Origin: Clostridia bacterium | Lineage (GTDB): Bacteria > Bacillota > Clostridia > Oscillospirales > CAG-272 | Direction: 5' to 3' | DNA: 44,220 nt | Assembly (NCBI GenBank): GCA_017504625.1 | Contig: JAFVQU010000016.1 | Location: 73,129-117,348 of the forward strand | Shown here: one piece after another, positions 4,120 through 24,118 of the stretch | Layout: each line of letters begins with the position of its first letter | How positions within the stretch are numbered: position 1 is the stretch's first letter | The notes under the pieces: model-generated | Databases searched by the model: none | Seen by the model: only the letters and a program-made list of their open reading frames with translations | What the model was told of the DNA's origin: nothing | Made by a program: the position numbers and the translations under genes

Positions 4120-4146
4120 TTAGCACTTAAGACAAAAGAGTGCTAA
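4120..4146 (+). promoter_or_regulatory. CIRCE operator (HrcA binding site)
   Basis: The inverted repeat TTAGCACTT, then 9 bases, then GAGTGCTAA matches the CIRCE consensus TTAGCACTC-N9-GAGTGCTAA with one mismatch in the left arm. HrcA binds this site and represses the operon at normal temperature; in this family GroEL helps HrcA to fold. Its place just after the promoter and before hrcA implies autoregulation. Confidence 0.95.
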
Positions 4147-4188: not shown

Positions 4189-4213
4189 AATGCGAGGAAA
4201 GGACGAAAAAACG

Positions 4214-5308
4214 GTGTCACAGAACGGCAAAAGCGAGCTTAGCGAAAGAAAAAAGCGAATACTCAAGGCGATAGTCGACGCGCACATCGTTGACGGAGAG
4301 CCTGTCGGATCAAAGTATCTTATGCAAGACGAGCACTTGAACGTATCGTCTGCTACCATCCGAAACGAGATGGCAGAGCTTGAAGCGATGGGTTACCTCG
4401 AGCAGCCCCACACGTCCTCGGGAAGAGTACCGAGTGAGCTTGGATACAGATTTTACGTAGACTCACTTATCGAGAGCTACGCGATGACTACAAGCGAGAT
4501 CACCGAGATAAATAAGCTCCTCAAATCGAAAATGAACGAGCTTGACCAGATTCTTATGGCGGCGTCAAAGGTTGCGGGTAATCTCACCAATTACACCAGC
4601 TTTATGATAAAGCCCCGCGCAAGCTCTGTCAGCATCAAGCGCTTTGACGTTATCTACGTTGACAGACACAGTCTGCTTCTCGTTATGATCAGTAGCAACG
4701 GAAACGTTATTACCAAGCGGCTTTCGATAGAGATGAGAATAAGTCAGCTTACGGCGACAGATCTTTCGATGGCATTAAACGATCACATCGCGGGACTTAC
4801 GGCAAACGAGATAACGCTTCCTATTATTATGAAGCTTGAAAGCGCGATGGGAGATAAGGCGGCTATCGCAACTCCTATCATCAAGATAATATACGAGAGC
4901 ATGAACGAGCTTGACGGCGGCGACCTCAAGGTCAGCGGCATGGATAGGCTTCTTCAATACCCCGAGTACAGCAACAAGGAAGAGCTTCGCGAGCTTCTCG
5001 GCGCGTTTGAGAAGAAGGAGGACATACTTGAGCTTGTGTCCGACACAGACTCCGAGGGCGTAAACGTCGTTATCGGATCTGAAAGCTCGGTTAAGGTAAT
5101 GAACAACTCGGCGCTCGTGTTCAAGCCCGTCATCCGCGATGGAAAAACGCTTGGCGCGATAGGAATTATCGGTCCGCGCAGAATGGACTACGCAAAGGTC
5201 GTTGCAATGATCGAGGGGCTTGCGGATAACATCGAGAGTATTTTGAATGAAACTAATCTTTTAAACGGAAAGGATTTAGACGGAGGCGAGGATAATGGCG
5301 CAGGATGA
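4214..5308 (+). CDS. hrcA: Heat-inducible transcription repressor HrcA
   Basis: HrcA represses the dnaK and groE operons by binding CIRCE. The N-terminal winged-helix is recognisable in LSERKKRILKAIVDAHIV, GEPVGSKYL and SSATIRNEMAELE, followed by GYLEQPHTSSGRVPSELGYRFYVD. The C-terminal part contains the effector and dimer domain ending in IGIIGPRRMDYAKV. I place the start at GTG 4214, because GAGGAAAGGA (4194-4203) is a good ribosome site for it, while the upstream in-frame ATG at 4190 has none; the ATG cannot be excluded. Length is about 364 residues, slightly longer than many HrcA proteins. The stop overlaps grpE by 14 bases. Confidence 0.95.
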   Translation: MSQNGKSELSERKKRILKAIVDAHIVDGEPVGSKYLMQDEHLNVSSATIRNEMAELEAMGYLEQPHTSSGRVPSELGYRFYVDSLIESYAMTTSEITEINKLLKSKMNELDQILMAASKVAGNLTNYTSFMIKPRASSVSIKRFDVIYVDRHSLLLVMISSNGNVITKRLSIEMRISQLTATDLSMALNDHIAGLTANEITLPIIMKLESAMGDKAAIATPIIKIIYESMNELDGGDLKVSGMDRLLQYPEYSNKEELRELLGAFEKKEDILELVSDTDSEGVNVVIGSESSVKVMNNSALVFKPVIRDGKTLGAIGIIGPRRMDYAKVVAMIEGLADNIESILNETNLLNGKDLDGGEDNGAG

Positions 5309-17252: not shown

Positions 17253-18278
17253 TTATAAATATTTTGCCAATTCTTCAATATCGGCGTCGGTCGTTGCCCA
17301 GCTCGTTGCAAGGCGCACGACGGTGTGACTGTCATCGTATTTTTCCCAAAATCCGACCGCCACATTCTTCTTAAGCTCTTCAAGCTTACCGTTTTCAACG
17401 ATAATAAACTGCTGATTGGTGGGAGAATCGAGGTGGAATCTGTATCCCTTATCGGCAAGCAATTTTTTCAGCTTTTCCGCTTGATCTATCGCGTTTTTGC
17501 TTATCTCAAAATAAAGTCCGTCGGTGAAAAGCGTGTCAAACTGCACGCCGAGAAGTCTGCCCTTGGCAAGAAGTCCGCCGTGCTGCTTTATCGAGGTCAT
17601 AAAGTGCTTTGGCGTATTGTTTTTCGTAAATACGACCGCCTCGCCGCAGAGTGCGCCGACCTTCGTGCCGCCGATGTAGAAAACGTCGCAAAGACTTGCT
17701 ATCTCGGGGAGTGAGAGGTCTGTGTCACGGCTCATAAGACCGTAGCCAAGACGCGCGCCGTCAAGGAAGAGCGGAATACCTTTCTTGCGGCAGATATCCG
17801 AAATCCTTGTCAGCTCGTCCTTCGTATAAAGCGTGCCGTACTCGGTCGGATGCGATACGTATACCATACCGGGAAATACCATATGCTCGTGGTTATCGTC
17901 GGCGTAAAAATCTTTGATGAAGCCGTCAAGCTCGTCCGCGTCAAGCTTTCCGTTATGGTGGGGAAGCAGGAATACCTTGTGTCCCGTGTATTCTATCGAG
18001 CCTGCCTCGTGAAAGCCGATGTGACCGGTTACCGTTGAGATAACGCCCTCGTATCGCGCAAGCATCGAGGAAATAACGATAGCGTTGGTTTGCGTACCGC
18101 CTGCGATAAGCCATACGTCACTGTCGGGGCATCCGCACGCCACCTTTATCTTTTCCTTTGCGCTGTCGCAGTATTTGTCAAATCCGTAGCCCGCGAGAGC
18201 CTCGAAATTGGTTTCACCAAGGCGGCGGAGAATCTCGGGATGCGCTCCCATTATGTAATCACTCTGAAAATATACCAT
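17253..18278 (-). CDS. Low-specificity threonine aldolase-like PLP enzyme
   Basis: This 341-residue protein belongs to the beta-eliminating lyase/threonine aldolase family, which cleaves threonine to glycine and acetaldehyde with pyridoxal phosphate. The PLP lysine is in FYIGGTKVGALCGEA, and the cofactor aspartate in PLFLDGARLGYGL. N-terminal SDYIMGAHPEILRRL is typical. I choose ATG 18278, preceded by GAGGT at 6 bases, and not the in-frame ATG at 18299. It is first in a two-gene operon with murI. Some members of this family act on other beta-hydroxy amino acids, so substrate is not fixed. Confidence 0.88.
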   Translation of the reverse strand: MVYFQSDYIMGAHPEILRRLGETNFEALAGYGFDKYCDSAKEKIKVACGCPDSDVWLIAGGTQTNAIVISSMLARYEGVISTVTGHIGFHEAGSIEYTGHKVFLLPHHNGKLDADELDGFIKDFYADDNHEHMVFPGMVYVSHPTEYGTLYTKDELTRISDICRKKGIPLFLDGARLGYGLMSRDTDLSLPEIASLCDVFYIGGTKVGALCGEAVVFTKNNTPKHFMTSIKQHGGLLAKGRLLGVQFDTLFTDGLYFEISKNAIDQAEKLKKLLADKGYRFHLDSPTNQQFIIVENGKLEELKKNVAVGFWEKYDDSHTVVRLATSWATTDADIEELAKYL

Positions 18279-18300
18279 GATCGACCTCAAATAACACAAA

Positions 18301-20876: not shown

Positions 20877-21932
20877 TTATATTGCCGCGCCGATAAGCTG
20901 ACTTATAAGCGGTAAAATATATTTTCTCGCCCCGTCGGAGCGCCCTACTCTGCAGTCGTCAAGCGAGTGACAGCTATTGCCGAGAGTTGCCGCGACCGCG
21001 CCGTTTAGTCCCTCGCAGGTCAGCGTGTTGAGAAGCGATATCGGGCATTTTGGCGCGCCGTCGCGACAGGCGGGAAGAGCGATAGCAAGTCTTATGCGCG
21101 AGATCAGCGAGAGAAGCTCGTCCTCGTCGATCATTCGCGCCGTTGCGAGCGTGCCGAGCGCGCGCCACGCCCTGTCGCATATTATTGTGCTCTTATTTGA
21201 AAAAACAATTCGCTCACAGCTTATCTCACTGCTTACAAGATCACCTATAAGCGCGGAAAAGTCCGAGATCGCCTTTTTTTCGTCAAGCGCGAGAGAGGGA
21301 ATATATGAAAGCACGTAAAGGTCGCCCGCGTTGTCGTATTTTGCTAAAAACGGGGATAAGGTCGCGCCGTAAGCCGCCGCCTCGCGTTGCATATCTCCGT
21401 ACCTTGCTCCGTGTCTTGACGCGGGCAAAAACAGACAGACCGAAAGCTCAAGGGCAGAGCCGCAAAGCGCGATGTCGGAGGCAAGATAGCCGAGCTTGTC
21501 CGAGTATGCAAAGCTGAATTCTCGGTCGAGCAGCTCCTCTGCCTCAGAGGCTATTTTGTGCGCCTCGTCAAGCGACAAGCCCGAAAGCAGAGCTTGTATA
21601 TTGAGGTGAAATTCACCGCCCGAAAATATCGTAAGATTGCACGGCTCGTTGAAATAAAGACACCTCTCGCCATTGTCGATTGCAAAGCTGTAATCAATAA
21701 GCTGCTTTTCGGCAAGTGAGTATATCTCAGCGCAAGGGCTGCTCGTCATCTGATGCGAGTGAAAGCCGTTTGCCTCCATCAGCTCGGAAAGTCTTGAGGA
21801 AAAAGTCCCGTGACCAGACGGTAATTCCTTATCCCGCGCGTTGAAGGGAAGTGACGCGATATTTCGCATATATCTTACCTTTGACCAAAGAACGTGAGGA
21901 TTTTTAGAGTCCTCTGTGTTGTACCAGAACAT
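20877..21932 (-). CDS. McsB-like ATP:guanido phosphotransferase homologue, catalytic residues lost
   Basis: By position and alignment this is McsB, the protein arginine kinase that marks proteins for ClpC-ClpP. It aligns along its length (351 residues; about 363 in Bacillus subtilis, from memory), for example VLWSKVRYMRN with VLSSRIRLARN, and LGYL plus 21 colinear residues with the catalytic block. Key residues are gone: the catalytic cysteine of the TSCPTNVGTGLR block is Asp153, that block's last arginine is Glu162, NEEDH reads SGGEFH (104-109), and the C-terminal RDxxRA motif is not kept. The frame is intact with a strong ribosome site AAAGGAG, so it is not simply a pseudogene. It may be a pseudokinase adaptor for ClpC. 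Confidence 0.85.
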   Translation of the reverse strand: MFWYNTEDSKNPHVLWSKVRYMRNIASLPFNARDKELPSGHGTFSSRLSELMEANGFHSHQMTSSPCAEIYSLAEKQLIDYSFAIDNGERCLYFNEPCNLTIFSGGEFHLNIQALLSGLSLDEAHKIASEAEELLDREFSFAYSDKLGYLASDIALCGSALELSVCLFLPASRHGARYGDMQREAAAYGATLSPFLAKYDNAGDLYVLSYIPSLALDEKKAISDFSALIGDLVSSEISCERIVFSNKSTIICDRAWRALGTLATARMIDEDELLSLISRIRLAIALPACRDGAPKCPISLLNTLTCEGLNGAVAATLGNSCHSLDDCRVGRSDGARKYILPLISQLIGAAI

Positions 21933-21950
21933 TTTATTATCTCCTTTCGC

Positions 21951-22804: not shown

Positions 22805-24118
22805 ATGGACAAGAATTTGACGGTTGGATACCAAAAAACAGCCTCGCTGTTCGATGCAGGAAGCTTCGTTGAGATTGGCGCTTTTATTAAGCGAAGCGGC
22901 GACGATAAGGCTTACGACGGCATAGTTTGCGGCTACGGCTCGATCTCGGGCAAGCTCGCGTTTGCGTTTGTGCAGGACAGCGACAGAACTAAGGGCGCGT
23001 TTGACGAGGCGGGAGCAAAGAAGATCGAAATGCTCTACGATATGGCAATAAAGAACGGCGCACCCGTGATCGGCGTTTTTGACAGCGCGGGCGCGGCGGT
23101 GCTTGACGGAAGCGCAACGCTTTCGGCATACGGAAGATTTATCGCGGCGGTATCTCGCGCGTCGGGAGTTATCCCTCAGATCGCGGTGTTCGACGGCATC
23201 TGCACGGGAATGGCACTCACCATTGCAAATATGTTTGACCTTACCGTTAAGGTTGCCGATAAGGCGGAGCTTTATCTTAAGGCGACCTCAAACAGTAAAG
23301 AGCAGTTCTGCTCTATCGAGGCAGAGAACGAGGCGGCAGCTTTCACGGCGGCTCGTGAGCTTGTCGAGATACTTCCTCAGAACAATAAGGACGATGCAAG
23401 CGGTATGTCGGGCGACGACGCGGGCAGAGCGGTTGCTATCGACGGACTTACCGGCAAGGCACTTATTGAGGCACTTTGCGACAACGGCAAGTTTATCGAG
23501 ATCAACGCAAGAGTCAGCGGAATCGTTACGGGCTTTGCATTCTTCGGCGGCAGACTTTGCGGTGTTATCGCGTCCGACAATACCTGTGACGCGGGTAAGA
23601 TCGGATTTATCGGCGCAAAGAAGGCGGCTGATATCATCTCCTTCTGCGACAGATTTGGAATTTCGATCCTCACGCTCGTTGACAGCGAAGGACTTTGCGA
23701 TTGCGCATGCCCCGTATGCACGGCGGCTCTCGCGTCAGCTTACGCCAACGCTACCTGCGCAAAGGTAACGGCAGTAGTCGGCAAGGCTTACGGAGCAGGC
23801 TTTACACTTCTCGGCTCAAAGGCTATCGGCGCGGATATTGAGATCGCGACCGAGGGCGCGGTCATCAGCGTAATGAGCCCCGAGAGCGCGGTTGCGTTCC
23901 TTATGAACGATCAGATCAGCGCGGACAAGTCGAGAGCCGACGTTGAGGCTGAATGGTGCGAAAAGTACGCGAGCGCAACCTGTGCGGCAGAGAAGGGCGA
24001 TATCGACGATATCATCTCCCCCGAAACCCTCCGCGCAAGAATTTGCTCGGCACTCTATATGCTTGCGGTAAAGGCGGACGGCATTCCCGAGCGCAAGTAC
24101 GCAAGAACTCCTCTTTGA
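22805..24118 (+). CDS. Divergent 12S-type carboxyltransferase subunit (MmdA/acyl-CoA carboxylase beta-like)
   Basis: This 437-residue protein has two crotonase-like carboxyltransferase halves. The first half carries YDGIVCGYGSISGK, APVIGVFDSAGAAV and SGVIPQIAVFDGICTGMA; the second carries VTGFAFFGGRLCGVIA and VVGKAYGAGFTLLGSKAIGADI. It is shorter than usual (about 510). Expected oxyanion-hole motifs are altered: SGGAR reads SAGAA and CAGGA reads CTGMA. The DxPGFxPG loop of the second half is replaced by a segment with four cysteines, C298-D-C300-A-C302-P-V-C305. It heads an operon with the Na+ pump subunits and biotin carrier, so it should exchange a carboxyl group with biotin, but its acyl substrate is unclear. 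Confidence 0.78.
   Translation: MDKNLTVGYQKTASLFDAGSFVEIGAFIKRSGDDKAYDGIVCGYGSISGKLAFAFVQDSDRTKGAFDEAGAKKIEMLYDMAIKNGAPVIGVFDSAGAAVLDGSATLSAYGRFIAAVSRASGVIPQIAVFDGICTGMALTIANMFDLTVKVADKAELYLKATSNSKEQFCSIEAENEAAAFTAARELVEILPQNNKDDASGMSGDDAGRAVAIDGLTGKALIEALCDNGKFIEINARVSGIVTGFAFFGGRLCGVIASDNTCDAGKIGFIGAKKAADIISFCDRFGISILTLVDSEGLCDCACPVCTAALASAYANATCAKVTAVVGKAYGAGFTLLGSKAIGADIEIATEGAVISVMSPESAVAFLMNDQISADKSRADVEAEWCEKYASATCAAEKGDIDDIISPETLRARICSALYMLAVKADGIPERKYARTPL

Follow-up and report, generated by a model that had tools for sequence, protein, structure and literature searches.

A McsB homologue predicted to lack arginine kinase activity is retained beside mcsA and clpC in gut Clostridia

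It is not settled whether Gram-positive bacteria use McsB in protein quality control for anything besides arginine phosphorylation. The locus described here raises this question in a natural setting: what keeps an mcsB-type gene in place between mcsA and clpC when the catalytic residues of its product are gone? A kinase-independent adaptor effect of McsB is hinted at by data from B. subtilis, where, according to the accessible part of PMC7235348, the turnover of MgsR still responds in part to McsB C167S (half-life of 12.3 min compared to 17.7 min in the deletion). In the literature searched, which left subscription papers largely out of reach, no report of a natural McsB pseudokinase was recognised.

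In the window, the whole stretch of 44,220 nucleotides that was analysed, the three genes are encoded on the same strand (Table 1). The position of mcsB between mcsA and clpC and the integrity of its frame and ribosome site (a 351-aa open reading frame with AGGAG eight bases before the ATG) are as the sequence-only reading had described them, and no internal stop was found in the window mcsB. The gene is a McsB homologue by sequence comparison. Its product is matched by Pfam PF00217 (ATP:guanido phosphotransferase catalytic domain) over the cut-off (E = 7.8e-16), by NCBIfam McsB models down to E = 3.8e-38 and by the PDB McsB 6fh1 (E = 1.5e-19). The McsB equivalog cut-offs were missed by far, the best NCBIfam model reaching 131.5 bits versus the 385 demanded. 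Both the homology, with few gaps over residues 3–290 of 351 in the alignment to PDB McsB chains, and the gene order mcsA-mcsB-clpC are shared with the McsB kinases of B. subtilis, G. stearothermophilus and S. aureus (6tv6, 6fh1, 8gqd). Within the genus, mcsA adjoins mcsB in all 12 genomes and clpC comes next in 11, while the contig of the twelfth ends before that point.

Residues were mapped through the PDB McsB alignments and numbered for B. subtilis as in PMC7235348, R337 being placed via the RDxxRA motif in the family alignment. Unlike the McsB kinases, the window protein is devoid of the catalytic cysteine, the first glutamate of NEEDH (here Gly106) and R29, R125, R176, R207 and R337, which are replaced by Lys18, Asn111, Glu162, Ser193 and Cys327, respectively. 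The earlier claims that the cysteine has given way to Asp153 and an arginine to Glu162 agree with the PDB alignments, as do the readings WSK for SSR (16–18) and SGGEFH for the NEEDH region (104–109). The claim that the RDxxRA motif is gone went too far: R337 is indeed lost in the CRVGRS segment, but Arg331, the equivalent of R341, is kept. Also retained are R31, R34 and the second NEEDH glutamate. As far as the available text of PMC7235348 goes, exchange of R29, R31, R34, R125, R176, R207 or R337 for lysine abolishes the signal of B. subtilis McsB, and five of these seven arginines reported as essential are absent from the window protein; R337 is assigned to the pArg receptor site in the accessible portion of PMC8370763. 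Judged by these residues, loss of catalysis in the window McsB is very likely.

Table 1. Features of the mcsA-mcsB-clpC locus, with positions in the window and residues in window numbering unless stated otherwise
Feature	Position	Strand	Remarks
clpC, 813 aa	18388..20829	minus	downstream of mcsB
mcsB-type gene (predicted pseudokinase)	20877..21932	minus	351 aa, ATG start, intact frame
CRVGRS (327-332) at RDxxRA position	20937..20954	minus	R337 lost, Arg331 (R341 equivalent) kept
Glu272 (S. aureus E277), partner of Arg257	21117..21119	minus	Glu in 29/34 Cys-less McsB, Asp otherwise
Arg257 (S. aureus R262, B. subtilis R272)	21162..21164	minus	kept in 34/34 Cys-less McsB
S193-P194 replacing R207-G208	21351..21356	minus	Pro in 12/12 genus genomes
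Asp153 at catalytic Cys position (C157 S. aureus 8gqd, C167 B. subtilis)	21474..21476	minus	
Y143-Y149 loop, equivalent of S. aureus Y147-Y153	21486..21506	minus	kept; Tyr or Phe at 143
S104-GGEF-H109 replacing NEEDH region	21606..21623	minus	G105, G106 in 12/12 genus genomes
W16-S17-K18 replacing SSR	21879..21887	minus	R29 lost
Ribosome-binding site AGGAG of mcsB	21941..21945	minus	8 bases 5' of ATG
mcsA, 171 aa	21951..22466	minus	upstream of mcsB

The losses extend across the genus. The catalytic cysteine was found in none of the 12 genus McsB sequences, its position being occupied by S, N, H, I, L, F or R in the other species, and the first NEEDH glutamate and R125 are absent in all 12, R207 in 11. 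Out of eight scored residues (R29, E120, E121, R125, C167, R176, R207 and R337), the genus sequences keep none or one, compared to seven or eight in 57 cysteine-bearing McsB. The combination of D153 and SGGEFH, for which the sequence-only reading had proposed a search in related genomes, occurs in this exact form only in the window species, while the loss of the cysteine is common to all 12. The other 11 sequences share 34–44% identity with the window protein, so the pseudokinase state would not be young. A second, canonical mcsB was not found: PF00217 has a single match in the window's own genome (96.9% complete) and exactly one, without stops, in each of the 12 genus genomes, although absences from this search alone are weak evidence, since it gave no match in any of its 14 named control genomes, one of which, B. 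subtilis, is McsB-positive in the literature. A genomic scan of named genomes yielded 16 loci, ten of which (L088–L097) carry genus-type motifs; these ten stem from uncultured 'Oscillospiraceae', 'Clostridia' or 'Eubacteriales' MAGs, four with goat, roe deer or sheep gut named in the title. No relative was found in the viral contigs searched.

The gene is under purifying selection. For mcsB, dN/dS was 0.077–0.174 in eight genus pairs (one with saturated dS), far below 1, and for mcsA it was 0.127–0.218 in the same pairs (one undefined); values were obtained by the Nei-Gojobori method, several pairs have a dS above 1, and pairs with mcsB identity below 55% and clpC identity below 80% were left out. 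Ranges of 0.078–0.103 (six pairs) and 0.025–0.287 (four pairs) were obtained for mcsB of genera g100 and g3, respectively, with 0.110–0.143 for three pairs of cysteine-bearing g3 sequences discussed below, and canonical mcsB gave 0.042–0.205 (ten pairs with defined values). The pseudokinase interpretation put forward earlier withstood both the search for a second copy and the dN/dS test. We consider it probable that McsB is a pseudokinase here, that phosphoarginine signalling has been given up in the clade and that McsA-McsB is kept as an assembly serving ClpC. The cysteine-less McsB of genus g42 evolves faster (dN/dS 0.161–0.368, ten pairs), which counts against this reading.

Column conservation places the losses in McsB. 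At least 90% conservation in 57 canonical sequences was found for 56 McsB columns, 21 of which are kept in at most one of the 12 genus sequences; 14 of these 21 are located in catalytic motifs or the lid. Among 150 equally conserved columns of ClpC, a single one is kept in at most one of 11 genus sequences; the loss thus hits McsB and spares the neighbouring clpC. The canonical-majority residue was kept at a fraction of 0.97 in cysteine-bearing McsB versus 0.22 in the genus for 22 motif columns, 0.88 versus 0.59 for 19 columns of the C-terminal domain, and 0.88 versus 0.45 for 55 non-motif columns. The whole phosphotransferase domain has therefore diverged, beyond the motifs, which also counts against the preferred reading.

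New residues have become fixed at the old active site (G105, G106 and P194 in 12 of 12 genus genomes), and P97, G105, G106, C157, L192 and P194 are derived residues common to the genus and genus g100. Such residues would be expected had the site been repurposed for a new ligand or metal (for example through C98, C157 and the GG turn), McsB then being a binder or an enzyme with no adaptor role for ClpC. C98 is present in all 12 genus sequences, C157 in ten and C327 in nine, the latter two in none of the 57 cysteine-bearing McsB. However, C157 is replaced by threonine in two species, C98 also occurs in seven of the 57, closeness in space of the three cysteines has no support, and conservation of the old site within the genus is not above that of random columns (0.617 versus 0.561, with 13.5% of draws as high). 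We regard a repurposed site as improbable.

The pseudokinase reading gains from the distribution of the other components of the system. The catalytic cysteine is absent in 32 of 72 McsB sequences of the family, in several lineages; this fraction is not a prevalence, since the 72 sequences combine 37 of the 38 McsB carriers among 60 family genomes with 35 others, selected by hand among the 176 matching family genomes from genera whose matches were weak or mixed. The sequences of G040 (family) and of G071 and G093 (order) were left out of the counts, although McsB is present. Among the family genomes, searches for a YwlE-type phosphatase succeeded in 33 of the 40 with the cysteine and in none of the 32 without it (Fisher p = 6.8e-14, an overstatement, since genomes are counted as independent), and CtsR was found in 36 of the 40 versus 7 of the 32. 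Seven cysteine-bearing genomes were without YwlE (G059, G153, G206, G355, G379, G422 and G428), four of which (G059, G153, G355 and G428) are only 66–77% complete. Unlike McsB kinase systems, the window genome yielded neither a YwlE-type phosphatase nor CtsR; the YwlE-type DNA motif and CtsR were found in none of the 12 genus genomes, compared to 34 and 47, respectively, of 98 relatives.

The phosphatases were typed by their motif, in which threonine presumably marks YwlE and isoleucine the tyrosine type of low-molecular-weight (LMW) phosphatase. PF01451 matched in four of the 12 genus genomes, all four reading GNICRSP, as does every LMW phosphatase found in cysteine-less family genomes. The YwlE-type count takes in the GNTCRSPMC of three cysteine-bearing genomes (G364, G401 and G408). 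Genomes without McsB can also encode the threonine type, as do G032, G037 and G091. Outside the family, the cysteine-less G074 encodes one protein reading NTCRSAM.

McsB is missing from 22 of the 60 family genomes. In these, neither a YwlE-type phosphatase nor CtsR was found (two hold divergent threonine-type phosphatases), and the McsA model gave a best E of 8.9e-7 or nothing, the listed matches being partial or in longer frames. Approximately 3 kb upstream of clpC were read in 20 McsB-less regions, none of which contains McsB; 16 of the 20 are from the family and hold neither McsA nor McsB, and McsA was found in a single region (L218 of G094), outside the family. G094 as well as G062 and G086, likewise outside the family, encode a McsA-like protein and CtsR without McsB; as G062 and G086 illustrate, McsA can exist in other lineages in the absence of McsB.

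In a rapidly built tree of ClpC, pseudokinase lineages are interspersed with McsB-less ones. This mixture, the large share of McsB-less relatives and the raised dN/dS in g42 are what would be expected of a decaying relic, that is, of a McsB on its way out after the loss of arginine phosphorylation and preserved for the time being by its place in the operon. Against this stand the intact frame in 12 of 12 genus genomes, 11 of them sharing 34–44% identity with the window protein, the low dN/dS in the genus and the fixation of new residues at the old site, some of them shared with g100. A relic is disfavoured and, in our view, quite unlikely. The pArg pockets of ClpC were considered as a sign of adaptation and proved uninformative: E32 and E106, which we take to be the pocket sites, are kept as glutamate in all groups, including McsB-less sequences (18 of 19 and 19 of 19, respectively). 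ClpC thus gives no sign of adapting, a point that counts against the preferred reading.

The same ClpC tree, which cannot distinguish gain from loss, requires at least seven changes of the cysteine state, and its well-supported (starred) branches force only three for the cysteine-less group, which leaves the count of origins uncertain; recurrent loss of the cysteine in the family is likely. In phylogenetically independent pairs, the differences in YwlE all run in the same direction as those in the cysteine, the pairs on starred branches (four and three) being too few for significance. That McsB turned into a pseudokinase several times in this one family of gut Clostridia, each time without YwlE and with McsA-McsB remaining next to clpC, and that an old and important, phosphorylation-independent job of McsA-McsB on ClpC underlies this, is a tentative proposal to which we give somewhat less than an even chance.

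Two kinds of unusual McsB were observed beside these. In three genomes of genus g3 (loci L178, L181 and L183 of G206, G355 and G379), the cysteine is kept, whereas R337, CtsR and a detected YwlE are absent; these may be intermediates toward a pseudokinase, in which case loss of the phosphatase and of the receptor may precede that of the catalytic residues. Two order-level relatives (L051 of G081 and L056 of G074) have Asp or Ser for the cysteine and keep six of the eight scored residues, so loss of the cysteine alone need not mean death of the enzyme, and their McsB could be unusual active kinases. That the genus protein itself has remained a kinase, using altered chemistry or another phosphoryl acceptor, would fit the clear family homology and the example of these two relatives but is very unlikely given the absence in the genus of R125 (12/12), R207 (11/12) and the first NEEDH glutamate (12/12) and of a detectable YwlE-type phosphatase.

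The reading as a non-catalytic McsA-McsB assembly draws on what has been retained. Fifteen columns are conserved to at least 90% in both cysteine-bearing and cysteine-less McsB, among them R23-N24, R257, R281 and R331 (window numbering), and the aromatic residue at 143, G148, Y149, R257, R281 and R331 are kept in all 34 cysteine-less McsB. Position 272 is glutamate in nine of the 12 genus sequences and in 20 of the 22 remaining cysteine-less ones, and aspartate in the others. The accessible text of PMC12467219 describes the S. aureus loop Y147-Y153, beside the catalytic cysteine, as the docking place of the McsA zinc finger, and an R262-E277 salt bridge as tying McsB heterodimers together at the McsB-McsB interface. 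The window McsB thus resembles the kinases in its McsA-docking loop, the R257-E272 interface pair and the R341 equivalent, and McsA contains all eight zinc-finger cysteines in 12 of 12 genus genomes, the window included.

A mechanism can be proposed along these lines. Phosphoarginine signalling would have been abandoned in the genus and, within the family, in several further lineages: McsB would have lost the residues needed to bind ATP and transfer the phosphoryl group, and the YwlE-type phosphatase, usually together with CtsR, would have disappeared, while purifying selection would maintain the McsA-McsB pair beside clpC. McsB would still dimerise through the Arg257-Glu272 salt bridge, its Tyr143-Tyr149 loop would still accept the second zinc finger of McsA, and the non-catalytic pair would act on ClpC as an adaptor or regulator that needs no phosphorylation. 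We infer that kinase activity is gone and that McsB assembles with McsA; the putative adaptor or scaffold role rests on gene order, McsA pairing, the docking loop and the dimer salt bridge, and a direct action on ClpC and its substrates is speculative. Several observations count against the proposal. The H..H.G segment conserved in canonical McsA was found in none of the 12 genus sequences (complete in 13 of 22 other cysteine-less lineages), so the contact between McsA and McsB may have changed. R255 and R281 of B. subtilis, needed there for stimulation by McsA, are present in 0 and 3 of the 12 genus sequences, respectively, compared to 51 and 20 of the 57 cysteine-bearing McsB. Moreover, in the available part of PMC7235348 the kinase-independent effect is tied by the authors to ClpX, not ClpC.

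The window McsB, predicted to be inactive, is comparable to B. subtilis C167S, for which an adaptor effect independent of the kinase is reported in the text of PMC7235348 that is available. Unlike that laboratory point mutant, it lacks the greater part of the active site and represents a conserved state that arose in nature. Retention of a kinase fold after loss of catalytic residues, as predicted here, is also known from bacterial serine-threonine pseudokinases, whose fold is unrelated; the review on these (PMC12599244), in its accessible part, leaves arginine kinases aside. A clade in which McsA-McsB persists, while the catalytic residues are gone, no YwlE-type phosphatase is detectable and CtsR is mostly missing, offers a natural experiment on the non-kinase function in isolation, and it suggests that the quality-control module can work without a phosphate tag. 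If this holds, the job of McsA-McsB on ClpC would have outlived the arginine-phosphate code itself. The homology-based annotation 'protein arginine kinase' would overstate how widespread phosphoarginine signalling is in gut bacteria.

HrcA appears to govern heat-shock control in the window genome, where no CtsR was found: hrcA (4190–5308, TIGR00331 over the cut-off) is preceded by a CIRCE operator (4120–4146, one mismatch) and followed by grpE and dnaK. CtsR boxes in the window gave four matches versus 3.3 expected by chance. A second Clp-type ATPase, presumably ClpE-like, is encoded outside the window (G000:C6:76397-78664), directly preceded by a McsA-zinc-finger match in a 783-residue open frame; this ATPase is a possible alternative partner. 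The open reading frame downstream of clpC (17253–18299, minus strand) had no NCBIfam match at E 1e-10. Divergently from mcsA, a gene on the plus strand (22805–24118) encodes a protein similar to the methylmalonyl-CoA decarboxylase alpha subunit (227 bits versus a cut-off of 999), its best stretch covering profile positions 214–512 of 512, as in a divergent carboxyltransferase.
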